Positions 7,003-26,605 of a stretch of 29,121 bases of DNA are shown one piece after another. Positions within the stretch are counted from its first letter, which is position 1, and each line of letters begins with the position of its first letter. The DNA lies in IMG/VR virus record IMGVR_UViG_3300009506_000142, positions 1-29,121 of that record; one strand, written 5' to 3'. The notes under the pieces are model-generated. The model searched no databases. It was given only the letters and a program-made list of their open reading frames with translations, and was not told the DNA's origin. This DNA is from a virus. A program made the position numbers and the translations under genes.

Positions 7003-7422
7003 CTACTCCGCCCGGCTACCGGGATTGACGACGATGGCCGCATAGTTCGGGAAGATTCCCACCTTCCTCTTCCGAAGCATCTTGAGATATCCGGCGTTCC
7101 CCGGGGGAACGACCCCCAGGATTCTCTTGATGCCATATCCTTCCAGTACCTTGATCAATGTCAGAAGTAGGTACAGGCCCACCCCTCCGCTCTTTCGATG
7201 ATCTCGGTGGACTACGAAGTGATCCGTGTAGGCGACGGGAACACCCTGGGCCACGAGCGACCAGACGTGGCCGATCAAATTCCCGTCCTCGTCGTGGGCT
7301 ACCAGACCAATCCCGTTCAATTCCTCGGGATCCTCTGGTACCCGGTAGTCGTGATCACGCAGGAGTTCAGCAACTCCTTCGTAGTCCTCCGGGATGTAGA
7401 AGCGGATGGATGGGATTTTCAT
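7003..7422 (-). CDS. GNAT-family N-acetyltransferase (139 aa)
   Basis: GNAT enzymes move an acetyl group from acetyl-CoA to an amine. The protein opens with a beta-strand/helix unit (IRFYIPEDYEGVAELL, residues 6-21) and carries VAHDEDGNLIGHVW (41-54), the usual GNAT beta hairpin. The acetyl-CoA motif A is at 70-86 (VHRDHRKSGGVGLYLLL), in which K77-S-G-G80-V-G82 fits the Q/RxxGxG/A pyrophosphate loop with Lys at the first position. A PPGNAGYLKMLRK helix follows. I chose ATG 7422 over 7440 because it forms an ATGA overlap with the tailspike stop and has GGTGA just upstream. Small GNAT genes occur near internal-protein genes in other podophages. The substrate is unknown and could be a virion protein, a host protein or a small amine. 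Confidence 0.8.
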   Translation of the reverse strand: MKIPSIRFYIPEDYEGVAELLRDHDYRVPEDPEELNGIGLVAHDEDGNLIGHVWSLVAQGVPVAYTDHFVVHRDHRKSGGVGLYLLLTLIKVLEGYGIKRILGVVPPGNAGYLKMLRKRKVGIFPNYAAIVVNPGSRAE

Positions 7423-12682: not shown

Positions 12683-13610
12683 CGTATGCCGTCTCGTAGT
12701 GCTCCCGGGCCGTGTACGGATTCAGGTAAACCGCACCATTCCCGGAGATGTCTCTCTTCTGCTGCTGGCCAACAACCCGCTCGAACTCTGCTAGCTCGAA
12801 CTGAGCCTGATTCATATCCATCTTGATGTATCGGTAGACGTAGTAACGAGCCCGGAACAGCAGGGCCATCTCGTACTCGGCTAGGTAGCCGGAGTGATCA
12901 CTGTCTACTTCCATCTGGGTGACCACGCCTTCGTACCGGAAGGGGTAGCGGCGCACCTTATCTGGGACAGGATCGAACTCGACGTAGTACCTGGGATCCC
13001 CTTCCTCCATCTTCTTCGAGTAGATGGTGAATCTAATGGGAACACCAGTATTATAGGTACCACCGTTTCTATCAAATTTGATGAGGTCGTAGTCTTCGGG
13101 GGACTTGTACTGGACCTTCCCGGCACCGAAGAAGTCCGTCAGGGTGATCGGCCGCTTGAATCCCGTGGGAAGCAGGTACCGATCCTGGGCGATCTTCCCA
13201 ACCAGACCAGATGCCGTCTCGCCCCGGTAAGTGATCTCGTTTCCAGCAAGATCCCCAAGCGTGAAGGTGAATCCGGTTGGTACGGTGCGAACCCGGTAAA
13301 CCTCGGAGTCCCGGGTGACGTGGAAGATCCGTCCGATCCAGGAGGAATCGGTGGCGGTAGTCGTCGCCACGGTCGCATTCCCCTCCGTAACGGCGACGCC
13401 TTCTACGGACGTCTCCTCTACCGTGGAGATGGTGCCGTGATATTGGAGGGGAGCGTTGGGCACCGCACGGGACACATCAAGCTGCGCGTCCCGAACGAAA
13501 CCCTTGATAAGGGCCATGTCGGAATCGTCCTGGACTCCATCCAGGGTATCTACGACACGGCCGACTCCAGTGGTCGAAACAACACGATTGACAAGTTCAA
13601 GATACGTCAT
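12675..13610 (-). CDS. Head-to-tail adaptor / neck protein (311 aa)
   Basis: The N-terminus MTYLELVNRVVSTTG and the following helices (MALIKGFVRDAQLDVSRAV, about 33-51) look like podovirus adaptor proteins that bind under the portal (P22 gp4 / T7 gp11 class). A beta-rich middle (about 55-215) is followed by a C-terminal helical part with LAEYEMALLFRARYYVYRYIK (about 243-263) and FELAEFERVVGQQQKRD. The helix/beta insertion/helix plan and about 300-residue length suit the class. It overlaps the glycosyltransferase stop by 14 bp and has GGAGG 9-10 nt before its ATG. Its role would be ringing the portal exit and seating the nozzle. The assignment rests on order and the N-terminal pattern. Confidence 0.75.
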   Translation of the reverse strand: MTYLELVNRVVSTTGVGRVVDTLDGVQDDSDMALIKGFVRDAQLDVSRAVPNAPLQYHGTISTVEETSVEGVAVTEGNATVATTTATDSSWIGRIFHVTRDSEVYRVRTVPTGFTFTLGDLAGNEITYRGETASGLVGKIAQDRYLLPTGFKRPITLTDFFGAGKVQYKSPEDYDLIKFDRNGGTYNTGVPIRFTIYSKKMEEGDPRYYVEFDPVPDKVRRYPFRYEGVVTQMEVDSDHSGYLAEYEMALLFRARYYVYRYIKMDMNQAQFELAEFERVVGQQQKRDISGNGAVYLNPYTAREHYETAYDG

Positions 13611-14550
13611 GGGCCAGGGCCTCCAGGATTTCCTCTCCTGTGCGCTCCTTGGCTTGGCCAGCAGAACGATCTACGTCTGCGTGATCATCGGACTGATCCC
13701 GGGCGTCGGTCATATTCGGCATGTCATCGGGCATGGAGAAAATGCGCTGCTTCTGGACGTCGAAGTGGTGACACTGGATGGATCCATCCACCGTGGTTCG
13801 ATACCCAGTCTCCTCCCGAAGGCGACTCACGAATCCGATGTCGTGGCCAACCACGCTCTGAACTGATCCGCTTTCGTTACTCTTCCGGATGTCAGTCCAC
13901 CATGGACTCTCCATCCTGCGGATCGCGGCCATCCGAACCAACATACAGCCGGCACCACAGGCGTAGATGTCCTCCGGAGGAGCTTCGGGATTCGTGTCGA
14001 ATCCCCAGTAGGCACCTACCGATCCATCCTTGTACAGGATCGGCTCCGGAGGATCGGCCCTCGTCCAGACAACTCCGGTAACTAGGCCGATGTCTGGGTA
14101 CTTGCTCATGTGGGCCAGCATCCGATAGAGCGTGTTCGACGGAACGAGCACGTCGTCGTCCCAGTAGAAGACGAAGTTGACTCCCAGGGCCATGGCCTCC
14201 TTGGTCATGGCTTCCCGGAGCACCGCCGATAGATCGTTCTTCTTGACCAGCCACGTAACGGAGACGTTCAACGGCTGGGCTAGCTGCATCTGGTTAACCA
14301 TCAATTCGATAGGGACGAGACCCGGCTGCCGATATTCCCCCACGATGGATCTCTCGCCGTGTTCATCGACATGGATATGCTGCTCCTCCTTGTCGCCGAT
14401 CGGCATGATGACCGCGAGGTGTGGGGCGTTAGCACGATTCTTGATCTGTGAACGGTGTTTGGCGACATAGCCATCCGCTACCTCGCGAACCGATCCGTTC
14501 TCGTTGATCCTCTTCCAAGGTTCATCGACAGCGCGGGTCTCGTCTACCAT
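13597..14550 (-). CDS. Glycosyltransferase, GT-A fold, GT2-like (317 aa)
   Basis: The GT-A features are visible in order: a first strand HLAVIMPIG (about 44-52), a core with FVFYWDDDVLVP in which D131-D132-D133 supplies the metal-binding DxD, then CGAGCMLVR (198-206), GHDIGF (235-240) as probable acceptor or catalytic region, and CHHF (260-263) near the end where a metal-binding His is expected. It would move a sugar from a nucleotide donor. The sugar and acceptor are unknown. The frame extends upstream to 14790, but that extension is antisense-like Arg/Ser/Pro sequence overlapping the previous gene. ATG 14550 has AGGAG 8 nt upstream and lies 13 bp after that gene's stop, so I start there. 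Lying between capsid-associated and neck genes, it may modify a virion protein. Altering host surface glycans is the alternative. Confidence 0.85.
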   Translation of the reverse strand: MVDETRAVDEPWKRINENGSVREVADGYVAKHRSQIKNRANAPHLAVIMPIGDKEEQHIHVDEHGERSIVGEYRQPGLVPIELMVNQMQLAQPLNVSVTWLVKKNDLSAVLREAMTKEAMALGVNFVFYWDDDVLVPSNTLYRMLAHMSKYPDIGLVTGVVWTRADPPEPILYKDGSVGAYWGFDTNPEAPPEDIYACGAGCMLVRMAAIRRMESPWWTDIRKSNESGSVQSVVGHDIGFVSRLREETGYRTTVDGSIQCHHFDVQKQRIFSMPDDMPNMTDARDQSDDHADVDRSAGQAKERTGEEILEALAHDVS

Positions 14551-14563
14551 CAAGGCTTCTCCT

Positions 14564-15427
14564 TTAGCTACGACCGAAATCGGACACGTAGGACTCTCCA
14601 ACAGAAGCGTACTGCTTTTCCTGGGCGACCCATGCACGGTACAGCGGAAGCACGATAGCGGACGTGGACGACTGCTGGATCGTGAAGGTCGGGGCGAGGG
14701 CCCCGAGGTCCGTGATCGGACCGTTCGTGGACAGGACCAGAGTCCCACTGTAGGTCCCCGATCCGTCCTGGGCGAACCACTGGACTTCATTGATCCCGCA
14801 CTTGAACCCCAGGGAGAATGCTACCCCATCGGCGATGGTGTTTCCAACGGACACCGTATCGTCTGTAGTGGCGTCCTGCACTCTCAGCGTGAATCCAGCA
14901 TCAGTCTGGACCCGGTGGAATCCAACCATGTCCACGTTGGCAGCCGTGCCTCCAGATGCCCCAAGGGGGCCGGCAGCTCCGGGATCCGTAGATACACATA
15001 GCCCGAAGAATGCCCTGGTGTTTGCGGCAACGTTGGTCTCGCCCTGCATGAAGAAGTAGATCGGTCGATCAGCAGCCGGGTGGAAGATGTTGGGGCCAAT
15101 CGCGTTGACCTCATGGCTGCCAGTCGTGGATCCAGTCGTGATGTCGATGGAGCCATCGGTGTTCTTCGTGAACCCGGCGGCGGTATTAGCCGTACCGGAG
15201 CTGCCATCGCCAGCGACCAGTCCGGAGACAACGCTCGTTCCGGTTGCTGAGGCCAAGGTTGCATTGATTGCGAAGTCAGCGCAGTTCCACTCCCACACAT
15301 TCCACATGGAGGAATTGAGGGCGTTGATCGGTACGTGAATGGAGTTGGCGTAGATGGAGTCGGGGAGGCATCTGCGATCCGATCCCAGCACCGGCCAACC
15401 AAGGTGTGTTCCAAACTCTCGTGCCAT
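14564..15427 (-). CDS. Probable capsid-associated structural protein (287 aa)
   Basis: This is a beta-rich protein of unknown exact function encoded directly after the major capsid gene. It has an N-terminal segment with Trp and Cys (about 40-50), a Gly/Ser/Thr/Ala-rich middle (about 58-105) and strands such as RPIYFFMQGE and GTLVLSTNG. The overall look is a jelly-roll or lectin-like virion protein, for example a head fibre, decoration or neck component. No catalytic motif is visible. ATG 15427 follows GGGGGAG at 7 nt. That SD is complementary to an upstream hairpin arm, so its translation may be controlled (see 15435-15470). Context supports a virion role but does not say where it sits. Confidence 0.6.
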   Translation of the reverse strand: MAREFGTHLGWPVLGSDRRCLPDSIYANSIHVPINALNSSMWNVWEWNCADFAINATLASATGTSVVSGLVAGDGSSGTANTAAGFTKNTDGSIDITTGSTTGSHEVNAIGPNIFHPAADRPIYFFMQGETNVAANTRAFFGLCVSTDPGAAGPLGASGGTAANVDMVGFHRVQTDAGFTLRVQDATTDDTVSVGNTIADGVAFSLGFKCGINEVQWFAQDGSGTYSGTLVLSTNGPITDLGALAPTFTIQQSSTSAIVLPLYRAWVAQEKQYASVGESYVSDFGRS

Positions 15428-15434
15428 CTGGTTT

Positions 15435-15470
15435 CTCCCCCAGATTGCGGGGGGAGGTTTCCCTCCCCCC
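15435..15470 (-). promoter_or_regulatory. Hairpin and ribosome-binding site that can pair alternatively, between capsid and next gene
   Basis: Eight bases after the capsid stop the minus strand forms a perfect 9-bp stem (arms 15462-15470 and 15449-15457) with a GAAA loop. No U-run follows, so it is not a standard terminator. The 3' arm contains CTCCCCC, which is also perfectly complementary to the ribosome-binding site GGGGGAG of the next gene (15435-15441), with an 8-nt loop between. The two pairings exclude each other. Seen: both complementarities. Inferred: control of downstream translation or mRNA stability. Confidence 0.55.
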
Positions 15471-15478
15471 TATGTTGC

Positions 15479-16402
15479 CTAGCTGGACCCCGAGGATCCG
15501 TAGGTGCCGATCCAGTCACCGGCCCCGCCGACGAACCGCATCGAACCCTTCCGCAGACCAGCGCCCGTGCGGAAATCCATGTCCGCGCCGAGCGTGATGT
15601 CACGCCGCATCCAACCGGTCAGGTTGTGGGTGCCCTTGTCAGCGATCACGAACCAGGAGTTCGAGTCGGTGATGTACGGGCTCCAGCCCCAGGTAAGACC
15701 CGTGGCGAACGGAGTGCTTCGGATGGAGTTGATGGTGTTGTCGGCCGAGTACGGAACCGAGCGGGTCGAGAGGATCTCGTCCGCACGGAACGAAAGAGCC
15801 GAAGGAACCCAGAGCTTCGCAGCCTGGGTCATGACGGGGATCGCACGATGGTTCGTGGTGTCACCGAAGGAGGTGAGCGCCGTCTCCAGGTTGGCCGGGG
15901 AAAGATCCGCAGCCGCGTAGTTGGAGAAAGTTCCACCATCCACCAGGGAGTGGCTCGCGCTGAAAATCGCAGCAGTATCCCAGGTGGTCTCGGTACCGAT
16001 GTTGGAGAGACCGTTGTTGAGGATGTTCCAGAAGTAGGTCTCCTTGGTGGCCTTCACCGAACGAGCCATGGCTCGGGCCGTCTTGGAGAACACTGCGTCC
16101 TGGTCGTCCTCGATGATCTCCTCGGACATCTCCACGATCATCGTGAACTTCTTGTGGACGTACGACTTGTTGTATCCAGGGAGGAACGCATCGGTGTGGT
16201 ACTGCTCGTTCTCTCCGGTCTCCTTCATCAGACCAAGGCCGACGATCTGGGAGACATCCTCCCGCATCCGGCTAGAGGACATGATGTTGAAGACCTGACT
16301 GAACAACTCAGGGAAGTCCGTATAGTCCTCGAAGAAGATCGTGTCCATATACGGAAGACGTGCGTAAAACTGGTCCTGGAAGTTTGTGCGAAGCATAGCC
16401 AT
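15479..16402 (-). CDS. Major capsid protein, HK97-like fold (307 aa)
   Basis: The 307-residue protein has the order of elements expected of a compact HK97-fold capsid protein. An N-terminal helical arm (about 1-45) comes first. A probable E-loop region (about 60-90) follows, with GYNKSYVHKKFTMIVEMSEE. A long spine helix (about 98-130) contains ARAMARSVKATKETYFWNILN. The P/A-domain part then includes IPVMTQAAKLWVPSALSFRADEIL, followed by WGWSPYITDSNSWFVIAD. It has no protease-like N-terminal extension. The gene sits after scaffold and probable decoration genes, the usual place. ATG 16402 is preceded by GGGGA at about 8 nt; a second ATG two codons on is also possible. It would assemble into the procapsid on the scaffold and become the main head shell. 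Confidence 0.85.
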   Translation of the reverse strand: MAMLRTNFQDQFYARLPYMDTIFFEDYTDFPELFSQVFNIMSSSRMREDVSQIVGLGLMKETGENEQYHTDAFLPGYNKSYVHKKFTMIVEMSEEIIEDDQDAVFSKTARAMARSVKATKETYFWNILNNGLSNIGTETTWDTAAIFSASHSLVDGGTFSNYAAADLSPANLETALTSFGDTTNHRAIPVMTQAAKLWVPSALSFRADEILSTRSVPYSADNTINSIRSTPFATGLTWGWSPYITDSNSWFVIADKGTHNLTGWMRRDITLGADMDFRTGAGLRKGSMRFVGGAGDWIGTYGSSGSS

Positions 16403-16413
16403 GATCTATTCCC

Positions 16414-16929
16414 CTAGGTTACGTTGCCTTCGGACAACTTGATCACGACAACCGCACCGGACTCCGCGCCATCCTTGGGATCCTTTCCAAGGGACACGAT
16501 TTCAAACATTCCAGTAGGGAGACCAGAGACATAGGCGGTGGACTGGTGGGTCGCGGCCCGTCCAACCCCGCCGTGCGAGATCACGTTAACCTTGTCGCCG
16601 ACATTCGCCTGGGTAATCGAGCCAGTCATCATGGCCTCCCAGGTGCATCCGGCGACATCGGTAATCACCTGGATTCCACGGGTCTTTCCGTCAGACGGAG
16701 TAGACGTGAGGTATCCATCCGAGACACCGATGAAGGTGCGCAGATTCGTGAGATCGTTCACGAATGTGGTCTTGTGGGCTGCATAGCCATCGGCCCGGAT
16801 CTGCAAGAGATCGCCCTTGAAGATCTTGGCCGCGTAGGTGGTGCTTACCTGTAGAGTGATGCATCCAGGCATTCCGCCACCCATCTTCCGGGGGTTCATC
16901 AATCCCCGGGGATGCCAAGCCTTGGACAT
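16414..16929 (-). CDS. Probable capsid decoration protein (171 aa)
   Basis: This is a small beta-rich protein of the kind often encoded just upstream of the capsid gene in podophages. After a basic N-terminal tail (MSKAWHPRGLMNPRKMGGG), it has strands ITLQVSTTYAAKIFKGDLLQI (about 24-44) and the turn-rich FIGVSDGYL. Later come GDKVNVISHGG and a final SGAVVVIKL. The pattern of GD/GV turns resembles head-decoration proteins that cap capsomers. Twelve bases separate its TAG from the capsid ATG, and GGAG lies 8-9 nt before its own ATG. The decoration role comes from position and fold style; a head-completion protein is another possibility. Confidence 0.6.
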   Translation of the reverse strand: MSKAWHPRGLMNPRKMGGGMPGCITLQVSTTYAAKIFKGDLLQIRADGYAAHKTTFVNDLTNLRTFIGVSDGYLTSTPSDGKTRGIQVITDVAGCTWEAMMTGSITQANVGDKVNVISHGGVGRAATHQSTAYVSGLPTGMFEIVSLGKDPKDGAESGAVVVIKLSEGNVT

Positions 16930-16953
16930 GGTTAGTTCTCCGAATCGAGTGCC

Positions 16954-17616
16954 TTACTTATCGTCCGAAACCTTCGCACGATAACGAACACCGATCGGAT
17001 CGCTTTCGGAGGAAGTCTGGGAATGGATGCGGTCGAAGTTCTGGACACCTGGGGTGACCTGACCCTCCTGAACCGCCTTCTCCATAGCCTGACTGCGCTG
17101 ATAAATCGCAGCGTTCCTCTGCTCGACTTCGGAGTGGGGTCTCTTGGCGAGGTACGAATCTCCAGAGTAGATCCGGCCATCCTCGCCTTTCCGAAGGTGG
17201 GCTGATGGACAGAGCTTCCGAGCGTCCTCCATGTCCGTGATCGGAACCCAATTCTCCATGGTGACACGCTCGCGTACTGCGTCGTGGCACCACCGATAGG
17301 CCATGGGATCGTTCTTCGGTCTGTCGATCTTCAGCCGATTGGCAGGAGACCATTGTGCTTCGAGTTGCATGGATCCGAGGAATCTTGCTCTCTGCTTGCT
17401 GGCGTACTCCGGATCAATAGCATGGCGGAGGCTTTCCGCCTGCTCCTTCAGCGCCTCGTGAACCTCGATTTCCCTCTCGTCTTCCTCGGTCCTCTTCGAG
17501 AAAATCTTCTCCTCGACTAGATCCTCGGCCTTCTTCGGGAACGAAGCCTTCATGCGCTTGGGCTTTGGCAGTTCAACCTGCCCCTCGCCCTCGTAGGGAT
17601 CTGGGTAGTCAGTCAT
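16954..17616 (-). CDS. Unknown head-region protein (220 aa)
   Basis: I do not recognise a named family. The first 70 residues are highly charged (Lys/Glu-rich, helical). The middle has MAYRWCHDAVRERVTMENWVP (about 104-124) and ARKLCPSAHLRKGEDGRIYSGDSYLAKRP (about 131-159), two Cys and several Trp. The last 45 residues are polar. The ATG overlaps the scaffold TGA by one base (TGATG), implying coupled translation with the scaffold. The context makes an assembly partner, head-completion factor or minor capsid protein likely. There is no enzymatic signature and no signal peptide. Confidence 0.65.
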   Translation of the reverse strand: MTDYPDPYEGEGQVELPKPKRMKASFPKKAEDLVEEKIFSKRTEEDEREIEVHEALKEQAESLRHAIDPEYASKQRARFLGSMQLEAQWSPANRLKIDRPKNDPMAYRWCHDAVRERVTMENWVPITDMEDARKLCPSAHLRKGEDGRIYSGDSYLAKRPHSEVEQRNAAIYQRSQAMEKAVQEGQVTPGVQNFDRIHSQTSSESDPIGVRYRAKVSDDK

Positions 17617-18407
17617 CAGGAAATCCTCGCATTAGAGTATTGGGCCTGGAGCTTCTTGAACCTAGCAACAGTCTCCTTGTTGGATGGATCCAGACCCATG
17701 CGAGACATCGTATCCCGCTCTGAATCCGTCAGGTGAGACTTCGGCTTCGCCAGATCGGGGTCGCGCTTAGGCGCTCCCTCGGCAGCCGAGCGTGAGATTC
17801 TCCGCTCTCGACTGTGGTCCGCCGGATTCTCCATCCCCGCCGTCCTTCCAACTCTATGGAGTGCCATGTTGTAGGCCAGATTCTCTGCGCCTTCGCTCTG
17901 AGGATCCACAACTCCGGACTTGAGGAGCTTCTTCTGTTCGGACTTCACCTTCTGGGCGAACTCGGAGTCCGGGTCCTTGAGATCCGGATACAGTTCAGTC
18001 ATGTACTCGGTGATGAACTGCTGGGTTTTCTCCCCCCGATATTCGTTCCGTACCTGCTCCAGGATTTCATCCCGGACCTGATTGGTGTAATGGAAGGCGG
18101 CATCGAACTGGTTCTTGCCGTCGTCTTCCAGGCCGAACTTCTTAAGCTCCTCGGCCGTTCGCTTCTTGGTCTCTTCCACCTTCTCCCGGGTCTGGAGCGC
18201 CGTGTTCTTGGCGAGGAGATCAACGATGTTCTCCTGACTCTTCTCCAGTCTCCGTTCGAGCTGTGCTATCCGATCGTTGAAAGACGCGATTTCCGGAGGA
18301 GCGCCACCGTCCTCGGGATCTGAGCCCGATCCCTGGGCATCCTGGGTGTTCTCGGAGTCCCGTGGCTCCTCTACAGGATCATCAATCGGGAAGTCATGGA
18401 TCGACAT
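17616..18407 (-). CDS. Scaffolding protein (263 aa)
   Basis: The protein has an acidic Pro/Asp/Glu-rich N-terminus (about 1-40) and a long coiled coil (about 42-90: FNDRIAQLERRLEKSQENI and onward). A helical middle follows, then a basic, Lys/Arg-containing C-terminus, the part that in known scaffolds binds capsid protein. It lacks cysteine and any catalytic motif. This composition with a position three genes before the capsid is characteristic. I start at ATG 18407, which has AGGA 6 nt upstream. The frame continues to a GTG at 18446, but that codon lies in a small hairpin. It would direct procapsid assembly and be absent from the finished head. Confidence 0.75.
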   Translation of the reverse strand: MSIHDFPIDDPVEEPRDSENTQDAQGSGSDPEDGGAPPEIASFNDRIAQLERRLEKSQENIVDLLAKNTALQTREKVEETKKRTAEELKKFGLEDDGKNQFDAAFHYTNQVRDEILEQVRNEYRGEKTQQFITEYMTELYPDLKDPDSEFAQKVKSEQKKLLKSGVVDPQSEGAENLAYNMALHRVGRTAGMENPADHSRERRISRSAAEGAPKRDPDLAKPKSHLTDSERDTMSRMGLDPSNKETVARFKKLQAQYSNARIS

Positions 18408-18517
18408 CGGTTTCCTATAGTGGGAACTCAGGGTCCCTCGGGGCACCTCCCCGACGCAAACCCAACAGTTCCAAGGTTTTACGGTCTAGGATACTCCCTC
18501 CGAAGAGTGGAGACGCA
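18408..18517 (-). promoter_or_regulatory. 110-bp gap before the scaffold gene with a T7-promoter-like core
   Basis: This is the longest gap inside the structural operon. The minus strand carries CACTATAGG (18414-18422), identical to the core of the T7 RNA polymerase promoter around its start site, placed 6 bases before the scaffold ATG. It also holds a 5-bp CGGGG/CCCCG hairpin (18439-18453). The upstream half of a T7 promoter is not matched and the motif overlaps the ribosome binding site, so function is uncertain. Confidence 0.3.
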
Positions 18518-18814
18518 TCAGCTTCCTTCTTCTTCCGGGAGGTACTCGTCCCCCGGGGCTTCGGTGTCTTCGACGTTCTCTTCTTCTGGGGCACCGTAGG
18601 TGTCCTCCGTGATTGGTGCTTCCTCCTCCTCGTATCTGGACTGGATCGCCTTTGGCAGGTGATCCCGGATGAAGACCAAAGTCTTCACCTCAGCCTGGAG
18701 GTTTGGCACCTTTTCCTGGTCGGCGAGAATTAGCTGCGCGGTTTTGTTGTCAATGATTTTTGTTAACTCCGCACGGTATATCTTGTACCCGTCCGACTTG
18801 AAGAAATCTCTCAT
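18518..18814 (-). CDS. Small acidic protein of the head module (98 aa)
   Basis: Residues 1-60 are helical with mixed charge (YRAELTKIIDNKTAQLILADQ, then VKTLVFIRDHL). Residues 60-98 are extremely acidic and Pro-containing (YEEEEAP, PEEENVEDTEAPGDEYLPEEE). There are no Cys or Trp. Its ATG overlaps the preceding TGA (ATGA), giving translational coupling. A short helical head with an acidic tail between portal and scaffold genes could be a portal-associated, scaffold-like or head-completion factor. I cannot assign a family. The strong acidity and coupling support a real gene. Confidence 0.65.
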   Translation of the reverse strand: MRDFFKSDGYKIYRAELTKIIDNKTAQLILADQEKVPNLQAEVKTLVFIRDHLPKAIQSRYEEEEAPITEDTYGAPEEENVEDTEAPGDEYLPEEEGS

Positions 18815-19164
18815 CCTGCGGCCATCCAGTTGAAGGTGACGTTGGCAGAACGGGTTTGGACTGCCGTCAGATTCGTCACCGCCTTGGTCGTCCAGACCTG
18901 GACTACTGCTACCCCGTCCAGATCAATCTTCTGGCTATCGGCGAATGTAACGGTGCAGGATTTGGTACTTTCAAGATAGATAACCGATGCATTCGCGATC
19001 GACGGAAAGTGGATCACGGTAGATGATCCGGACGCCAGAACCACGGATCCGGAGTGGAATTCCGTCACCGAGGTCGTCTTGTTTAGGATCTGCTTCACTA
19101 CGGTATCCGTGGCATTTTGCCCCAGTACCGTCCCCTGGATCTTGGTCTTGGTGATGGCTCCCAC
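18811..19164 (-). CDS. Small beta-rich structural protein (117 aa)
   Basis: The gene begins with GTG immediately after the portal TAA and ends in an ATGA overlap with the next gene. The protein is Thr/Ser/Val-rich with alternating hydrophobic strands (SVVLASGSSTVIHFP, ASVIYLESTKSCTVTF, VAVVQVWTTKAVTNL). It has one Cys and no helices of note, resembling a single beta-sandwich domain. This suggests a minor head or decoration protein made at levels tied to the portal. No specific family is recognised. Confidence 0.65.
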   Translation of the reverse strand: MGAITKTKIQGTVLGQNATDTVVKQILNKTTSVTEFHSGSVVLASGSSTVIHFPSIANASVIYLESTKSCTVTFADSQKIDLDGVAVVQVWTTKAVTNLTAVQTRSANVTFNWMAAG

Positions 19165-21528
19165 TTAGTATCCTCCTCCGCTGAAGGTCGATCCGAGCTG
19201 TTCGGCGGCACCTTCGGAAAGTCCAAATCCACCTTCGCCCCCACCTGCGAGCTGGCCTTGGCCGACGAAGTTGCCGAAGGCACCTGGGCCTGCTGTCCGT
19301 CCGCCACCTCCCTGGGCCTGGATCTGCTGCTCGATGATCCGGCGGAATCTGAGGTGAGCCTGCTTGTGAGGCTTCCAGACAGACTCGACCCATTCCTTGG
19401 TCACGGATCCGAAGCCCTCGGAAATCTCGAACGCATCCATGATCGCGATGTGCTCCTCGTGGTTGTCGCCCATGATTGGCTCCACGGGGATTCCCTGGAT
19501 CATGGCGACGATCTCGTCCTCCTGGGTCATCGGGGCACGATCGAAGCCCGGAGCGTCCGGGATGATTTGATCAGCGTTCTTGAAGTCAAGGGCTTCTAGG
19601 AAGTTCCGCACAAGGATTCTTGTGCCCTGGCTGATCGCTTCGGGTGGCATCTGGGAGATGGGCAGTGTGGCTTCCATGGCCATCGCGGCGAACTGACGCC
19701 GGATCTCCTTGTTGGCCGAGACCGTTTCAAGCTCCCAGTAGAAGTCGTACTTGTTGTTCAAGTCCTTCCGGCCGATTGTGCGGAGGCGATCCTTCCCGGT
19801 AACCCGGAACTCCTCCCGATCGGGGGCATTCGCTCTGAGTACACTGAGGGTCTTGTGGGCAATATCGCTCAGAACCGGAGCCAAACGCTGGAGAAGGTAG
19901 TTGAGCTTGATTGCGTCCTGCTGAATGATGGCCAACGTTCCGCGTGCCGTACGGGGTGCATTGGCCCGATCGGGACCCCTCCCCATCGTAAACGTTGATA
20001 CGCTCAAATCTTCAGCCATGGCGAGCAAGAACTGCTCGACGTTCACGGCATCCCTGGGCTGGGAGACTCCAACATACTCCCTCACATCCGTACCAGGGTT
20101 ATCAACTGGGATCCACATGTTGGGCCGCCAGTTGAAGTCCCCTGGATCGAACCCGGATCCTGGCCGGAAGAATCCACCTGGAGAGATCGCCATGGTGGCC
20201 GCGTCGTTCCGGTGGTTGAACACCGTGTTCAGCTCCGTGACGAGCGGGAACAGGATTTCACCAACTCCGACATGAAGAATGCGATTCCCGATGGGGATTA
20301 GACCAGCGTGCACGATGGGCCGTTCGTGCATGTGATACTCGCTGTGTAGGTATTCGATCCGCATGACCTTCTTGGTGCGGGCCTCGTACCAGACCACATA
20401 GTCTTCCTCTTCCCCATCATGGTTCAGATCCAGCCTACGGAATTCCTCCCACACCTCGAATGGGTAGGTTCGGTGGCTATCTGCACCTTCAGCTCGATCT
20501 TGCAAATCTCTCATCCGGTGATCGCCGTCGATCGTGGTGCGCGGAAGGGTTTCAAGTTCCGTGATCCCTTCCTTGATCGCCTTCCCGGTGATGTACTTCT
20601 CCATCTCGTCGAGATCGTCTTTGGTTAGAAGATTCCACTTCCCGCTCTTGACGCCGGCCTGGATCTCCGTCCAACTCTTCTCGCGCCGAATGGCGATGTG
20701 GGATGCGTCCTGGATGCAGCTCACGTTGTACGGGAAGTAGATGTCGTCCATCTCGATGTTGTCGAATTGCGGACGATTGATGATCGTCTCCTTCGAGTCG
20801 AAGGAGCACACGATTTCCCGTGCGTCTGCGTCCTCGTAGGCCTCGATGTTGAAGGTCTTTTCTCTCCGGTCGGCCTCGTCCCAGATCGTGATGGAGTATT
20901 TCTGTCCGAAGGAACCCTGCCCGTTTGGCCTCAGTCCACGAACCTGTTCGTAGACCGAGAAGAAGTCCTCCAGGACGGCGCGCATGGAGATTTTGACCCT
21001 TCTGGTCTCATTCTGGCCGTCCTCGTTCTCGATACTCTCCTCGCGGAATAGAGGGAATCTCTCGATGGTTCTCGTGTTCCGGAGGACCCTGCGCCACCAG
21101 ACGATGCCGAAGGAGTTCCCGTAGAGAAATAGGTTCCTGATGAACCTTTCCAGGGGATCCATGATCTGCATCTTGTTGACGAAGTTGTAGCGCATGTACT
21201 CCGAGGTGTCCTCGGCCCGCTCCAAGGCCATTGGATGGCTGGACACGGGAACGGCGCTCATGCTCTTGAAGGATCCCTCCGGGGCGATCGTCTGGAGTGC
21301 GTGGATGACCATTCGATCCACGGCTCTCGTAACGATGGGCACGGAGGTATTCGAGCATCCACGGAACGGCTGGGCGCGCTTCCGAACCCGGTTCCGATAG
21401 GCATTGTAGAGCTTCAGCCGCTTGGTATCGAACTCTTGGCGATCAGCGGTATTGAGGTGCAAGTCCTGCTCGAACTGCTTGAACAGCTCGAATCGCTGAT
21501 CATCCGTAAGCGGAATCATCATCGGCAT
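19165..21528 (-). CDS. Portal protein (787 aa)
   Basis: This is the large ring protein at the DNA-entry vertex. It follows the terminase and has portal features. An N-terminal helical part is followed by PFRGCSNTSVPIVTRAVDRMV (about 50-70), the early segment seen in podovirus portals. Long mixed alpha/beta wing and stem regions come next. The region MAEDLSVSTFTMGRGPDRANAPRTARGTL is typical of the stem/crown transition. A helical barrel-like part leads to a Gly/Gln-rich end (GGGGRTAGPGAFGNF). Four in-frame ATGs cluster at 21534, 21528, 21522 and 21519; GGGAG stands 6 nt before 21528, so I prefer that one. The gene starts inside the terminase gene (29 bp overlap). Confidence 0.85.
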   Translation of the reverse strand: MPMMIPLTDDQRFELFKQFEQDLHLNTADRQEFDTKRLKLYNAYRNRVRKRAQPFRGCSNTSVPIVTRAVDRMVIHALQTIAPEGSFKSMSAVPVSSHPMALERAEDTSEYMRYNFVNKMQIMDPLERFIRNLFLYGNSFGIVWWRRVLRNTRTIERFPLFREESIENEDGQNETRRVKISMRAVLEDFFSVYEQVRGLRPNGQGSFGQKYSITIWDEADRREKTFNIEAYEDADAREIVCSFDSKETIINRPQFDNIEMDDIYFPYNVSCIQDASHIAIRREKSWTEIQAGVKSGKWNLLTKDDLDEMEKYITGKAIKEGITELETLPRTTIDGDHRMRDLQDRAEGADSHRTYPFEVWEEFRRLDLNHDGEEEDYVVWYEARTKKVMRIEYLHSEYHMHERPIVHAGLIPIGNRILHVGVGEILFPLVTELNTVFNHRNDAATMAISPGGFFRPGSGFDPGDFNWRPNMWIPVDNPGTDVREYVGVSQPRDAVNVEQFLLAMAEDLSVSTFTMGRGPDRANAPRTARGTLAIIQQDAIKLNYLLQRLAPVLSDIAHKTLSVLRANAPDREEFRVTGKDRLRTIGRKDLNNKYDFYWELETVSANKEIRRQFAAMAMEATLPISQMPPEAISQGTRILVRNFLEALDFKNADQIIPDAPGFDRAPMTQEDEIVAMIQGIPVEPIMGDNHEEHIAIMDAFEISEGFGSVTKEWVESVWKPHKQAHLRFRRIIEQQIQAQGGGGRTAGPGAFGNFVGQGQLAGGGEGGFGLSEGAAEQLGSTFSGGGY

Positions 21529-23053
21529 AGTCATCTCCCGGGTCGTAGTAGTCCGACTCTGATCCCTTACCTTCGTATTCCTCGGCCATCACTGCGTAGC
21601 CTTCGTCTGGACTAGGAGCGTCCCAGCTACCCCGGAAGTGCGTGACCCGAGTGAACTTTTCATAGGTAGGATTCCCTGCCTTCATGAACAGTAGGCAGTC
21701 GATCAGATCGTCGTCTTTCTTGTCGCTTCCCTCGGGAATGTCCTTGTACATCTCGGTTCTGGACTTGTTCCGGAGGGGTGGGTGAACGTATCTCTTGATC
21801 TCCCAGACGAGCCGTTCGCATCCCTTAAAGATCGAGATGCCGGGCTCCATGGTAAATTCGTTCACCTTGAAGGCTTCGGCCACGGCATAGACGCGGGCTC
21901 TCTTGTCGGCCTTCGGGGCTGGAGTGCAGGAGATCCCGTAGTCCCGGAAGATGTCGATCATCGACTTCCCGTTGACATCCTTCTGGTTCCCCCACGAATC
22001 CATGGTTGACCACTTAACCTTGTGGTGGCGATTGTGTTCGATCTCGTCCATCCGCTTCTTCAGTTGATCCATGTTGCGGATAGATGAATCGTACAATTCG
22101 TCCGTTACAATCAATCTGTTGGATGGAGTGATTCGTGCCCATAGAACTGCCATAGGCTTCGATAGTGCGGGGTCGATAGCTCTGATACACGGCCACTCGC
22201 TTGGCAACCGTGATTCTTCCACTAGCCATGGTTCCCTCGGCCTGAATTCCTTGAAGATCCGCCCCTGGAGATGCTGGGGCTTTCCGTGGAGGCGTACTTC
22301 GCGCTCCTGGTCGGTAAGTGTTTTCTCGAATCTCTGCACTGAGGATTCATCCAGGGCACCGGTGACTGTTCCGTCTGGATTCACGATCATCAGGTTGTCC
22401 CTGATGTCTCCCGTGGTGGCGTAGTAGTCCGGGTCTCCTTCGTCGTGGCGCTCCCAGATCTCGTCCCAGATCCATCCCTCGGAGAGAAGTGTCAGGGTCA
22501 ACCAGATCCGTCCGCCATGAACGACGATTCCTCGGGTTACCGGTGTCCAGAGTGCGTAGGGTGGAGGCTCGTCGAACCAGTAGAAGTGCTTATCCGCACC
22601 CTCCATCCGGTCCGGATCCATCTGGTAGGTTCCGTATCTGATCTCGGATCCATTCCTGAACTGCCATCCGATGCCACGACCCTGGCGTCGGATCGGTGTC
22701 GCCTCTCCCCTGGGGAGCCACTTGTTGAAGTGGGTGTTCAGGATCTCGTCGGTCTTGTCCCAGGTCTCCGCGAAACACATCCCCTTCACGGGCGGCTTGT
22801 ACGGTGTCCGGTATCTGGCGTGATCTGGACGCAGAAATGGCCGATACCCGATGCAGTAGGAGATGGATTCCAGCACACCGAATGTGCTCTTGCCGACCTT
22901 GTTTCCCCCGAACAGGCACCTGTACGTGGCATCCGAGCTGAACATCCGCTTCTGCGGGTTGTTCGGCCGGAAGAAGAGTGCCGGATGGTCCTTGCGAAAT
23001 CTTTCCAGCACTTCCAGATCCTTCTGGAGGGAAACTAGATCGTGAGCACTCAT
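21500..23053 (-). CDS. terL: Terminase large subunit (517 aa)
   Basis: This is the ATP-driven DNA packaging motor with C-terminal nuclease. Visible motifs are the Walker A loop GGNKVGKST (49-57), a Walker B HFYWFDEPP with D161-E162, and a likely coupling segment LTLTLLSEGW (185-194). The RNase H-like nuclease has acidic residues at D294 (RAIDPALSK), D352 (TMDSWG) and the KKDDDLIDCL cluster (446-454). The C-terminus is acidic (DYYDPGDDYADDDS). The length is normal. The ATG overlaps the upstream TGA (ATGA), and the 3' end overlaps the portal start. No small terminase is identified next to it; the ribbon-helix-helix-like protein at 24577-25110 is one weak candidate. Confidence 0.93.
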   Translation of the reverse strand: MSAHDLVSLQKDLEVLERFRKDHPALFFRPNNPQKRMFSSDATYRCLFGGNKVGKSTFGVLESISYCIGYRPFLRPDHARYRTPYKPPVKGMCFAETWDKTDEILNTHFNKWLPRGEATPIRRQGRGIGWQFRNGSEIRYGTYQMDPDRMEGADKHFYWFDEPPPYALWTPVTRGIVVHGGRIWLTLTLLSEGWIWDEIWERHDEGDPDYYATTGDIRDNLMIVNPDGTVTGALDESSVQRFEKTLTDQEREVRLHGKPQHLQGRIFKEFRPREPWLVEESRLPSEWPCIRAIDPALSKPMAVLWARITPSNRLIVTDELYDSSIRNMDQLKKRMDEIEHNRHHKVKWSTMDSWGNQKDVNGKSMIDIFRDYGISCTPAPKADKRARVYAVAEAFKVNEFTMEPGISIFKGCERLVWEIKRYVHPPLRNKSRTEMYKDIPEGSDKKDDDLIDCLLFMKAGNPTYEKFTRVTHFRGSWDAPSPDEGYAVMAEEYEGKGSESDYYDPGDDYADDDSAYG

Positions 23054-23499
23054 GGAACGAGATATCCCTCGATCATGAAGTTCCAGGAATCTCCATTGGT
23101 TACGGAAGCCCCAACATCAAGGATCACATCCCCGGTGATTCCCGCCCCGGCGTTGTTGATCAGTCCGTACGTGGACAGCTTTCTAAAGTCGAAGGTTGCT
23201 GTTCCGTACTTGGGCAATACGAAGAATGGAACATCGGCAGTGGCATCCCAGGATAGGGAAATTGCCGCCGTGGTGGACAGTAGACCGGCGGCCGAGGTCA
23301 CCGATATCGTCATGATCTTGAACTTGCTGAACAGTTCTCCGTTCAGTGGATTGATCGTGGAGTTGGTTGTCATGTGGGTCAGATCGGCGGAAGCATCAAT
23401 CAGCGTTCCATCTGCGGCAACCCCATTGGTCGTTGCCCTGCCGTTGTACACGAAATATCGACCCTTCTGGTCGATGGTCTCGATTATTGTCCAGGCCAT
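23050..23499 (-). CDS. Small beta-rich protein upstream of terminase (149 aa)
   Basis: This 149-residue protein has no recognised family. It is rich in Thr, Ala, Gly and hydrophobic strands (FKIMTISVTSAAGLL, AISLSWDATADVPFFVLP, DVILDVGASV), with no Cys and few charged residues. It looks like a secreted or virion beta-sandwich domain. The start follows a GGGGGA run, and the stop forms ATGA with the terminase gene. It resembles the next protein upstream in size and style, so the pair may form a decoration or fibre module. A role as small terminase looks unlikely, since those are helical and DNA-binding. Confidence 0.6.
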   Translation of the reverse strand: MAWTIIETIDQKGRYFVYNGRATTNGVAADGTLIDASADLTHMTTNSTINPLNGELFSKFKIMTISVTSAAGLLSTTAAISLSWDATADVPFFVLPKYGTATFDFRKLSTYGLINNAGAGITGDVILDVGASVTNGDSWNFMIEGYLVP

Positions 23500-23508
23500 G
23501 GTTTCCCC

Positions 23509-23964
23509 CTAGACCAGTTCCATCTCGATAAAAATAGACACGTAGTCGATGTTGGCCGTGGCACCGGACTCCGACGGCTTATATTGGAGATTGATATTGT
23601 GTAGAGATCCGGATCTCTCGCAGTAGGCTTCATTGATAGAATCTGATGTGAAGTCCCTCGTAGCGCAGTGTCCATGCTGGACTCCGAAAATGGGAACCGC
23701 ATCAGAACTCACCTGTGGCTGTTGCCAAATGTACCAGCAACCACCAGGGACATATGTGGCAACTTGCTGGTATGAAGACATCCCGATGTATCTGATCCTA
23801 AGCCCGGTGTAGGTTTTCCCGTTTATGGTTGATGTCACATCAGACGCGAAAGCGATTGGCGTTGCCGATGCAGCAGTATCAGTGTCGGCTGTTATGAACA
23901 CGCCGGTGAACGTCAGGGCAGTTCCGTTCTGCGTAATCTTCTCAGCTAGAGTGGTAATTGCCAT
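23509..23964 (-). CDS. Small beta-rich protein, possible virion component (151 aa)
   Basis: The 151 residues are Thr/Ser/Ala-rich with strands (TALTFTGVFITADTD, YTGLRIRYIGMSSYQQ, IDYVSIFIEMELV) and three Cys (GGCWYIW, GHCATRD, EAYCERS). The final IDYVSIFIEMEL strand is of the kind found at the end of phage jelly-roll domains. It lies 9 bp before the next gene and 2 bp after the glycosyltransferase, with an AGGTG ribosome site. I see no catalytic motif. Its pairing with a glycosyltransferase gene makes it a candidate substrate, which is speculation. Confidence 0.6.
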   Translation of the reverse strand: MAITTLAEKITQNGTALTFTGVFITADTDTAASATPIAFASDVTSTINGKTYTGLRIRYIGMSSYQQVATYVPGGCWYIWQQPQVSSDAVPIFGVQHGHCATRDFTSDSINEAYCERSGSLHNINLQYKPSESGATANIDYVSIFIEMELV

Positions 23965-23966
23965 GG

Positions 23967-24674
23967 CTACACCTTCAATCTCTTGGGAAGCATATCCAGT
24001 GGAATCCTGTCGTTCTTCCAGGATTCCATGGACACGTCCTTGAAGTGGAAGACGCGGGAATCTTCCATGGCGTAGGCCACCAAGCCTCGCTCCCGCATCC
24101 TAGATTGGTACTCGTCCTCGTTCCCGTAGTCCGTGATCTTGGGATTGAACAGGACTCCATCCCCGTAGGGGACGATTCGATCTTTCCGTAGGCAGAAGCA
24201 GAACCCATTCACGAAGTCGATCTGGTATCCGGCCCCGGTGGTTTTCTGGGCCTTGGAGTGCTCAATGAAGTGAACTGGGTCGTTGATCGGGAGAAGTTGA
24301 TTGTGCTGGTGGCCGGGCTGGTTAGTCATGGGGGCTGAGATCCCACATTCCTGGTATTGCTCGAAGATGTCCAGAAGTGGGTTCAGCCACCCATGAGTAA
24401 ACACTACGTCGTTGTTGGATATCACGAGATACTCGCAACTGGAATCCATCCACTCGCGATATGCCTGATTCCAACCATCGGTCAGGTTTCCGGATTCGAC
24501 GACGTAGTACGCATCGAACTCTTCCAGGACTTCATCCCCGTTGAACACGACGGATCCCATATCCACGAGGAGCGATCTATACTTCTCCGTTGTTAGACGG
24601 AGGGACTTGATCGCGATATCCGTGTAATCCTGGCGGTCTCTTTGCGTTATCGCCACCATAGTTTCGGATGCCAC
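23967..24674 (-). CDS. Glycosyltransferase, GT2-like (235 aa)
   Basis: This is a single-domain GT-A enzyme. The early strand MVAITQRDRQDYTDIAIKSL (about 6-25) is followed by YLVISNNDVVF with N87-N88-D89 in the position of the metal-binding DxD. Next come VNGFCFCLRKD (155-165), the GNEDEY acidic motif (184-189) that usually holds the catalytic base, and a late His (VFHFKDV, H210). It would transfer an unknown sugar to an unknown acceptor. It differs clearly from the glycosyltransferase at 13597-14550. I keep GTG 24674 because GGGAG lies about 10 nt upstream; ATG 24659 lacks an SD. Either start overlaps the upstream gene's 3' end by about 83-98 bp, which is unusual here. Confidence 0.85.
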   Translation of the reverse strand: MASETMVAITQRDRQDYTDIAIKSLRLTTEKYRSLLVDMGSVVFNGDEVLEEFDAYYVVESGNLTDGWNQAYREWMDSSCEYLVISNNDVVFTHGWLNPLLDIFEQYQECGISAPMTNQPGHQHNQLLPINDPVHFIEHSKAQKTTGAGYQIDFVNGFCFCLRKDRIVPYGDGVLFNPKITDYGNEDEYQSRMRERGLVAYAMEDSRVFHFKDVSMESWKNDRIPLDMLPKRLKV

Positions 24675-25110
24675 TTTTAGTCTTCTCCCACTTGTCCTTG
24701 GCTACGGATCTCTTTACGAGCGGCCTTGGGACTCGATCGTCCCGGCAGATCGCCTGCCTGTCGGTGTTTCTCAGGATCTTGTTGGTGTTCTCTACCCATC
24801 CGTACTTGTAGCAGAGGAGCCACAGCCCGAGTCGGAAGATTGCGCTTTTGGAGATTCCCCACATCTTGGTCATCTCTCCCAGGATCTCTTCCATCTCGGG
24901 GTTAGACGGCATGGTGACGTAGGTTTTCTTCCCTCTCTGGCGCGATCTCTGGTGATCCTTGATCGGGAGCTTGACCCCTTCCTCGCGGATGAGTTTCTCC
25001 ATGATCTCGTAACCGACGAGTGCCGACACGGCGTCTCCGGCGATTTCGTCGGACACCTTCTTGATCCGTGCCATCTGATCCTCTTCGGTCATCTCCTTGA
25101 AGGATTTCAT
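24577..25110 (-). CDS. Ribbon-helix-helix-like DNA-binding protein (177 aa)
   Basis: Residues 62-103 follow the ribbon-helix-helix plan: strand KTYVTMPSN, helix PEMEEILGEMTKMWG, turn, then helix SKSAIFRLGLWLLCYKYG. This suggests an Arc/MetJ-type dimeric DNA-binding protein. The N-terminal 50 residues are helical and charged; the C-terminal 70 are basic and loosely structured. I chose ATG 25110 because it makes an ATGA overlap with the previous stop. The longer frame to 25224 lies inside that gene. It may be a transcriptional regulator or, less likely, a small terminase subunit, since it lies in the late operon three genes before the large terminase. No promoter or operator lies next to it. 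Confidence 0.55.
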   Translation of the reverse strand: MKSFKEMTEEDQMARIKKVSDEIAGDAVSALVGYEIMEKLIREEGVKLPIKDHQRSRQRGKKTYVTMPSNPEMEEILGEMTKMWGISKSAIFRLGLWLLCYKYGWVENTNKILRNTDRQAICRDDRVPRPLVKRSVAKDKWEKTKSGIRNYGGDNAKRPPGLHGYRDQVPPSNNGEV

Positions 25111-25874
25111 GGGGTAACTCCGTCGTTGAGCGTCAGCTCGTGGTACGTGATGACCCTTGGGTAGTCCAGGTATACCGTTGGTCCTGCGAACGCAGCAATT
25201 TGGATCCTGAAATCCGTGGTCCATCCCATCATGTATGCTCTAGAGAACGAACCGGAGCATCGTCTTGAGTAGTTTGGCCACTGGTACACCCAGGAGTTGA
25301 TCCCATTCGTCCAGAAATAGAGTTCGCAGTTCGTGGGACCTACGGTCGTGTCGTTATCGCACGATCCAGACACGGCGTAGCAGTTGTAGGTCCACGGCGG
25401 GTACATCCCGACTCCGGTAACGGTGAACTGGGATCCTCCTGCAACCCGGATGTACCCGGATGTATTTGTCGCGTTTCGTCCGAATCCGATGTTGAATACG
25501 TGGGTGGATCTCCAGAATCCGCTTGGTGCCGCATCTCCATCCCAGAACAGGAGCATGGGTACCGGATCCTGTCGCCATGCTGGTCGGTGTGGTGCTGCTG
25601 TTCCGGTAGGACCTTGGGCCGTGTAGTCCACGATCCTCATGAAGGTGCTCCCGACCTTGACGATGTTGTTGATGGTAAGATCCCCGAATGCCTCTTCGAG
25701 GTTGGAGATCCTGGTCTGGTCGGTGCATACCTGTTCGGCGAGTTGCTGGATGGCCGGAGCCACGGTATTCGCCGGGAGTTTGAAGCAGTCCGTCTCGATG
25801 TTTCCGCCGAGTGGGTAGTCCTGTGCTGTTCGGCTGACGAGTCGGAGTAGTTGGTTCTTCTCGTGGTAGTTCAT
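25107..25874 (-). CDS. Unknown Cys- and Trp-rich beta-type protein (255 aa)
   Basis: The N-terminus (about 1-75) is helical with a leucine-spaced segment (IQQLAEQVCTDQTRISNLEEAF) that could trimerise. From about 100 on the protein becomes beta-rich with many aromatic residues and five Cys (YNCYAVSGSC, PTNCELYFW, RRCSGS). It ends in a strand TVYLDYPRVITYHEL. A short coiled coil followed by a compact beta domain is the layout of a fibre-tip or head-fibre protein. ATG 25874 is chosen for its ATGA overlap with the sulfotransferase stop; the longer frame to 25949 lies within that gene. There is no signal peptide and no family is recognised. Confidence 0.6.
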   Translation of the reverse strand: MNYHEKNQLLRLVSRTAQDYPLGGNIETDCFKLPANTVAPAIQQLAEQVCTDQTRISNLEEAFGDLTINNIVKVGSTFMRIVDYTAQGPTGTAAPHRPAWRQDPVPMLLFWDGDAAPSGFWRSTHVFNIGFGRNATNTSGYIRVAGGSQFTVTGVGMYPPWTYNCYAVSGSCDNDTTVGPTNCELYFWTNGINSWVYQWPNYSRRCSGSFSRAYMMGWTTDFRIQIAAFAGPTVYLDYPRVITYHELTLNDGVTP

Positions 25875-26605
25875 GCCATCCCCCGACTCTTCAGTTCCTC
25901 GCGCATCTGATCCTCGGTAACGGTTCCAGAACTGGTGATCTTGAACCACCGTGGTCCGGCATCGACGAGCTTCATTCTATGGAGGGATGGATCCACGAGT
26001 TCGGCGAGCTTGTGTGGATCTTTCTGGTGATTGACGGGGAGGTTTTGTGCTTCGAGGAAGTTCTTTAGCTTGGTGATCGCGAAGACCGGTTCAGTAATCA
26101 ATTCTCTGTGGGAGATCACGTAGATCGGGATTCCGAGTCCTGATACGTCTCTCCAGAATGTATCCTCGTACTTGTTCGCGATTTGGACTGCTGAACTGAT
26201 GGGGATACTCTCGGCCTTGGCCATGGATGCGGCGACCTCATCGTGTGATCGCCACACCTTAACGATGGCTGGGATTCCCCGAATCACGTCGTTCCAGAAA
26301 TGTGTGAGGATTGTGCTCCTTGGGTCCTTGAAGGCCTGAATCCCTTCATCGGCGATGATCTCTCTGGCTTGCCTCTTAAGGACTTCGAGTTCCTCCTTTT
26401 TGACATCGCCAGGGAATTGATTGGAAAGGTTCAGTAACCTTCTGTTTACCATGCTGAGTTTCATGTGTTCGAAGAATCCACGGGGGTTTTCGGCTGATGG
26501 GAAGGCGAATAGTCCGGTTCTGGATCCCAGGTCGAGCCCGAGGTGGTGGATGATTTGCGCCACGACGGACGTTCCCGAGCGATTTACCCCGCAGATGAGC
26601 AACAT
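25871..26605 (-). CDS. Sulfotransferase-family protein, PAPS-type P-loop (244 aa)
   Basis: This enzyme class moves sulfate from PAPS to a sugar, lipid, small molecule or tyrosine. The 5'-phosphosulfate loop is GVNRSGTSVV at residues 6-15. ENPRGFFEH follows at 39-47. KDPRSTIL (93-100) and VWRSHDEVAASMAK (117-130) match the KDPR and RxPxEVxxS elements that bind the 3'-phosphate. The Arg and Ser of the latter motif are R119 and S127. I start at ATG 26605, with GGAGG 6 nt upstream; a longer TTG start at 26653 has nothing comparable. It heads an ATGA-linked chain of accessory genes. The substrate is unknown: sulfated surface glycan or virion glycan are both possible. A related nucleotide-dependent kinase is less likely. 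Confidence 0.8.
   Translation of the reverse strand: MLLICGVNRSGTSVVAQIIHHLGLDLGSRTGLFAFPSAENPRGFFEHMKLSMVNRRLLNLSNQFPGDVKKEELEVLKRQAREIIADEGIQAFKDPRSTILTHFWNDVIRGIPAIVKVWRSHDEVAASMAKAESIPISSAVQIANKYEDTFWRDVSGLGIPIYVISHRELITEPVFAITKLKNFLEAQNLPVNHQKDPHKLAELVDPSLHRMKLVDAGPRWFKITSSGTVTEDQMREELKSRGMA

Follow-up and report, generated by a model that had tools for sequence, protein, structure and literature searches.

Why would a tailed phage carry enzymes that transfer sugar and sulfate among the genes that build its particle? This question is raised by the IMG/VR viral record IMGVR_UViG_3300009506_000142, of which positions 1 to 29,121 were analyzed (hereafter the window; 29,121 bp, a genome fragment in which the minus strand carries every plausible gene). 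An initial annotation, made from the sequence alone, had placed a sulfotransferase (ST), two glycosyltransferases (GT1 and GT2) and a GNAT acetyltransferase within a late virion operon. All four open reading frames (ORFs) were recovered where that annotation had put them, on the minus strand among terminase, portal, capsid, tail and spike genes, by re-reading of the ORFs and by PHROG and tblastn searches. The identities of ST, GT1 and GT2 were borne out by profiles, predicted structures and homologues. Herein, we interpret the window as fairly probably carrying a virion-glycosylation module with a sulfation step, in which soluble glycosyltransferases and the sulfotransferase would decorate a virion protein late in infection. 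The three enzymes are:

25871..26605, minus strand: predicted sulfotransferase of the 3'-phosphoadenosine-5'-phosphosulfate (PAPS) type, ST; 244 aa from the ATG (ORF 26653-25871, 260 aa from a TTG)
23967..24674, minus strand: predicted GT-A family 2 glycosyltransferase, GT1; GTG start, NND motif at residues 87-89
13597..14550, minus strand: predicted GT-A glycosyltransferase, GT2, with one small ORF separating it from the capsid gene upstream; ATG at 14550

When searched alone, ST had no Pfam or PHROG match, and a PF13469 search of its own record also missed it. An alignment of the window ST with 44 bacterial relatives at 19-28% identity (family A3; residues are numbered from the TTG) was therefore turned into a profile and used for ST scans. 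Family A3 corresponds to Sulfotransfer_3, since 40 of its 45 members match the Pfam model, although the window protein itself does not. All residues invariant in A3 are kept in the window ST: RSGTS 25-29, N56, G59, E62, K109, P111, R135 and S143. Among these are the 5'-phosphosulfate-binding loop R25-S29, where the model has a strand at 18-22 and then a helix at 25-37, and the 3'-phosphate-binding pair R135 and S143, invariant over the 45 sequences. Against solved structures, the A3 profile found sulfotransferases at E 1e-6. The AlphaFold (AF2) model of ST has a predicted local distance difference test score (pLDDT) of 86, and all of its top 50 solved matches have the sulfotransferase fold (Z 10.3-15.1). 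A BFVD structure search returned other viral sulfotransferases only, with weak TM. The profiles and the predicted structure together settle the identity of the gene product as a PAPS-type sulfotransferase by fold and retained active-site residues. As a start, the ATG at 26605, which has a good Shine-Dalgarno sequence (cGGAGGAccgaaATG), is more likely than the TTG at 26653. Among named phages, tblastn of ST found only the UNVERIFIED record of Pseudomonas phage Y4, which served only as an alignment seed. This record (OQ572406) holds a long sulfotransferase ORF with no annotation, and may be host DNA.

The start of GT2 is also preceded by a good Shine-Dalgarno sequence, AAGGAG. GT2 alone matched PF13506 at E 2.6e-4, just under the curated cut-off, and its relatives in the phage contigs L006 and L007 are 41% and 37% identical to it. 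In an alignment of 44 sequences, D133, P216 and D237 are invariant and H262 is conserved in more than 90%. The profile matched A197 of Sulfolobus turreted icosahedral virus (STIV) at E 4e-9 among solved structures. A197 was also the best solved match of the AF2 model (pLDDT 79.5; Z 19.2, root-mean-square deviation (rmsd) 2.4, 167/191 residues, 15% identity). The next matches were LH3, Mnn9, mimivirus R699 and TarP, and the matched GT-A enzymes span Z 14.6-19.2. Profile and predicted structure thus settle GT2 as a GT-A glycosyltransferase.

GT1 alone matched PF00535 at E 7e-4, again just under the curated cut-off. Homologues were found in the ST-bearing phage contigs L168 (E 5.6e-10) and L210 (E 1.1e-6), and these match PF00535 at E 2e-28 and 7e-27, respectively. 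The GT1 profile also found solved GT-A enzymes, with chondroitin synthase at E 1.5e-20, and N87-N88-D89 and H210 are invariant in the GT1 alignment of 3 sequences. By profile and homologues, GT1 is assigned as a GT-A family-2 glycosyltransferase. Its start lies about 98 nt inside the preceding regulator-like ORF (24577-24674), an unusually long overlap for a tightly packed genome.

The placement of a glycosyltransferase after the capsid gene recurs in relatives. The order of capsid gene, small ORF and glycosyltransferase is also found in L006 and L007, and in two Manatee Spring phages, MW202711 and MW202743, whose capsid proteins are 13-15% identical to that of the window. The recurrence indicates that this position is not an accident of gene order. 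The initial annotation had stated that a phage late operon usually holds only structural and packaging genes; this is overstated, as glycosyltransferases beside capsid genes recur in environmental phages. L006 also carries a C-methyltransferase (PF08484), an FkbM methyltransferase and two further glycosyltransferases between the portal and scaffold-like genes (2263-6580, the PF08484 protein being of the NDP-sugar type), and in L007 the capsid gene is followed by a glycosyltransferase, a C-methyltransferase (PF08484) and further glycosyltransferases. Judged by their families, these extra genes encode sugar-tailoring enzymes. In MW202743, an island of at least five glycosyltransferase and methyltransferase genes lies between the capsid and tail genes (7108-15939), with odd annotations such as 'has synthase'. 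Alignments were required to find relatives in IMG/VR, where single-protein scans with ST, GT2 and the portal protein gave none; the nine-member capsid alignment was too divergent for searching.

Linkage of sulfotransferases to glycosyltransferases was then seen across phages. Profile scanning of IMG/VR turned up 51 phage loci (L166-L216) that carry an ST from the family, or 42 after near-copies were removed. A PF00535 glycosyltransferase is present in 33/40 ST records vs 5/50 control records (Fisher p 1.6e-12), the controls having been fetched by capsid similarity only and sharing a capsid family. Among records of at least 20 kb, the counts are 24/27 and 3/16 (p 6e-6). The nearest glycosyltransferase lies within 3 kb of ST and on the same strand in 27 cases. 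The true rate of co-occurrence may be higher still, because L169 has two glycosyltransferase-like neighbors missed by PF00535.

A recognized structural gene in the same orientation lies within 30 of the 51 ST loci; such genes were recognized via reference proteins, many of them PHROG-confirmed and others labeled by position and reading. In L175, L178, L191 and their kin, the ST-GT block lies between the capsid/head-tail adaptor genes and the neck, tail-tube and tape-measure genes. L209 shares this arrangement, with a capsid region that has diverged. In L169, the TerL and portal genes come after ST and two putative glycosyltransferases, an order that resembles that of the window. In L210, the tail-completion and tail-tube genes enclose a run of four genes that encode GT2-like, GT1-like, ST and GT2-like proteins. 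The three predicted enzyme types of the window are thus one compact unit in an unrelated phage. The earlier proposal that the virion is decorated with sugar, and perhaps sulfate, gains support from the capsid-side position of the glycosyltransferase, the ST-GT linkage, the head-tail blocks and L210; its inclusion of the GNAT did not hold, as described below.

Several details of these loci were also observed. The compact block of L175 (4192-9150), L178 and L191 comprises MptE-like, cupin, GT, GT2, ST, methyltransferase-like and GT genes, between the head-tail adaptor and neck genes. A protein within the L209 block (5778-6422) looks polysaccharide-deacetylase-like by eye. As a class, phage Sulfotransfer_3 genes are members of glycosyltransferase clusters, frequently placed between the head and tail genes, and this setting seems to explain many of the phage sulfotransferases that have been listed as metabolic genes.

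The fold of ST suggests a different acceptor. Its best solved matches are the human tyrosylprotein sulfotransferases (Z 15.1, rmsd 4.0, 200 residues aligned, 14% identity), ahead of CurM at Z 13.2, and ST could accordingly sulfate a tyrosine of a virion protein independently of the glycosyltransferases. With only 14% identity, the acceptor specificity of ST is not readable from the fold. TPST-1/2 are eukaryotic, and the A3-family phage STs sit with glycosyltransferases, which points to a glycan acceptor. We regard a tyrosine-specific enzyme acting on its own as quite improbable.

The other genes of the window, given in order of transcription, are:

28257-27691, minus strand: small protein, first in transcription order
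27681-26650, minus strand: replication-initiator-like gene, adjoining ST
25107..25874, minus strand: unknown protein, possibly a fiber or decoration protein; its start overlaps the ST stop (ATGA)
24577..25110, minus strand: small regulator-like protein, a ribbon-helix-helix-like ORF between the ST block and GT1; weak match to phrog_876 transcriptional repressor (E 0.005)
23509..23964, minus strand: small virion-like protein after GT1, 21% Ser+Thr; no Pfam or PHROG family
23050..23499, minus strand: putative head decoration protein; homologues come just after the capsid gene in L060, L241, L221 and others
21500..23053, minus strand: terminase large subunit (TerL); tblastn against annotated terminases, best E 8e-22
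19165..21534, minus strand: portal protein; phrog_1216, E 1e-15
between the portal and capsid genes, minus strand: scaffold-like gene
15479..16402, minus strand: major capsid protein, candidate acceptor; phrog_371 (major head), E 3e-12
14564..15427, minus strand: protein encoded between the capsid gene and GT2, with 19.5% Ser+Thr; by position and composition, a candidate acceptor
12675..13610, minus strand: tail protein (tail-tubular-like), overlapping the GT2 stop by 14 nt; phrog_10775, E 5e-8, and L006 homologue, E 9e-17
after the tail gene 13610-12675, minus strand: stabilization-like protein
after the stabilization-like gene and before the GNAT, minus strand: two spike-like proteins
7003..7440, minus strand: GNAT acetyltransferase, flanked by the second spike-like gene and a virion-like gene; exact start not certain (the initial annotation gave 7422)
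after the GNAT, at the end of the gene order, minus strand: three large virion-like proteins

From ST onward, transcription runs through ST, the unknown protein, the regulator-like gene, GT1, two small virion-like genes, terminase, portal, the scaffold-like gene, capsid, 15427-14564, GT2 and tail. The ATG of the gene after ST, at 25874, overlaps the ST stop (25873-25871) by 4 bases. The protein of that gene (25107..25874) had no family match in Pfam or PHROG, and no homologue was found for it or for the 14564..15427 protein. The two spike-like proteins are large and consecutive (7419-10613), with no PHROG match and no relative in the fetched phages. The enzymes do lie among virion genes as first described, with the qualification that ST is upstream of TerL, at the front of the block and beside the replication-initiator-like gene. 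The term late operon is inferred from gene order and overlaps; a promoter and terminator scan of the window scored no better than shuffles, and so it neither supports nor refutes such an operon.

Could the enzymes instead act on the host? They might alter the O-antigen or capsule late in infection, and so keep released virions from adsorbing again to debris or infected cells. In bacteria, soluble GT2-family enzymes also assemble glycans linked to undecaprenyl, phage-driven changes of host serotype are known (from a review cited in PMC12619734), and bacterial STs related to that of the window occur across many phyla. However, no membrane segment was predicted in ST, GT1 or GT2, only borderline hydrophobic stretches being found elsewhere in the window; this speaks against a Gtr cassette of the classical, membrane-bound kind that converts serotype. 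Such a cassette, with multi-spanning GtrA/GtrC and a bactoprenol glycosyltransferase, was not found in the window, itself a fragment, and neither was a flippase-like or membrane Gtr protein. Moreover, the recurrent location of the genes is between capsid/neck and tail genes, next to decoration-like proteins, and GT2 is most like STIV A197. Modification of the host surface is therefore considered unlikely. Glycosylation of hypermodified phage DNA is more doubtful again and is regarded as very improbable. DNA-modifying phage glycosyltransferases are well known (as cited in PMC12619734), but the glycosyltransferase genes here are embedded among virion genes, and no enzyme of DNA-base modification was recognized in this fragment, whose missing part could hold some.

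The GNAT, which the initial annotation had counted among the enzyme set, matches PF00583 (Acetyltransf_1) at E 3.2e-7, with 31.1 bits against a cut-off of 20.7, so that its identity as an acetyltransferase stands. No phage homologue of it was found. As a fourth member of the module it was rejected: a GNAT above the cut-off occurs in only one other record out of 37 (L007), far from the GT block of that record, and the gene is absent from nearly all ST phages and unlinked to ST or GT genes in relatives. The GNAT is real but probably not part of the module.

We return to decoration of the virion itself. GT2 and GT1, as soluble cytoplasmic GT-A enzymes, would attach a short glycan from host nucleotide sugars to a virion protein late in infection. 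The most likely acceptor would be the capsid protein or its decoration-like neighbor, and the decoration-like proteins adjoining GT1 and GT2, with about 20% Ser+Thr, are candidates. ST would then transfer sulfate from host PAPS either to this glycan or to a residue in the virion protein; the ST-GT linkage favors the glycan, and the TPST-like fold suggests the protein. The outcome would be a negatively charged virion surface, with shielding or altered adsorption as the possible benefit. In this scheme we infer the late co-expression, the acceptor, the donor sugar, the order of the steps and the benefit.

Several observations weigh against such a module. ST, GT1 and GT2 are not adjacent in the window but spread over 13 kb in all, and no gene for sugar-nucleotide or PAPS synthesis was seen in the window, which is a fragment. 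The ST loci were drawn from one exact peptide pattern, the controls were imperfectly matched and some records are related. The A3 profile found no ST in L006 and L007, the closest GT2 relatives, and ST is therefore an optional addition. A quick tree of STs gave no support for placing the window ST within the main phage ST clade; it lies outside this clade, near bacterial sequences, and its branch is long and poorly placed. Phage and bacterial rows interleave in this tree, with 11 changes needed and at least 4 forced by well-supported branches. Because of this interleaving and the long, unplaced branch, the window ST appears to be an independent acquisition. A broader statement, which we hold to be evenly balanced between true and false, is that bacterial sulfotransferases were taken up repeatedly by several unrelated lineages of tailed phages into virion-glycosylation blocks within their morphogenesis operons, and that these phages release particles bearing sulfated glycans, with the window as one independent recruitment.

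The ST-GT linkage inside head-tail operons gives phage sulfotransferases a specific, testable function. If true, sulfation of the virion would alter its surface charge, the way it adsorbs and is inactivated, and how antibodies or predators recognize it; within the literature searched, it would be without precedent among tailed phages. The module, if true, would also be a route to naturally glycosylated and sulfated protein shells. Literature searches for a phage sulfotransferase with virion glycosylation returned nothing linking both. A sulfotransferase inside a virion-glycosylation module looks new, and a phage coating its own particles with sulfated sugars has apparently never been shown before.

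Virion glycosylation itself is known in mycobacteriophages Che8, Rita and relatives (Freeman et al. 2023, cited by PMC11256854 and PMC12619734). As in the window, the glycosyltransferases of these phages are phage-encoded, and they were proposed to act on capsid or tail proteins during infection. The mycobacteriophages belong to a different phage lineage, the available description of them mentions no sulfotransferase, and the glycosyltransferase genes of Maravista are near the 3' end of its genome, whereas those of the window are next to the capsid and terminase genes. STIV A197 is an essential glycosyltransferase whose proposed substrate is the capsid protein of STIV, itself glycosylated (PMC10551542). 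GT2 shares with A197 the minimal GT-A fold, a viral origin and the capsid as the proposed acceptor; A197 differs in coming from an unrelated archaeal virus, in its low identity to GT2 and in having no accompanying sulfotransferase. Phage genes of the same enzyme family as ST, Sulfotransfer_3, have been listed as auxiliary metabolic genes in OM43 phages (PMC10580990) and glacier phages (PMC8290583), and the function of phage sulfotransferases has been said to remain unclear (PMC10580990). Those sulfotransferases were treated as metabolic, whereas the ones described here are tied to glycosyltransferases and virion operons.

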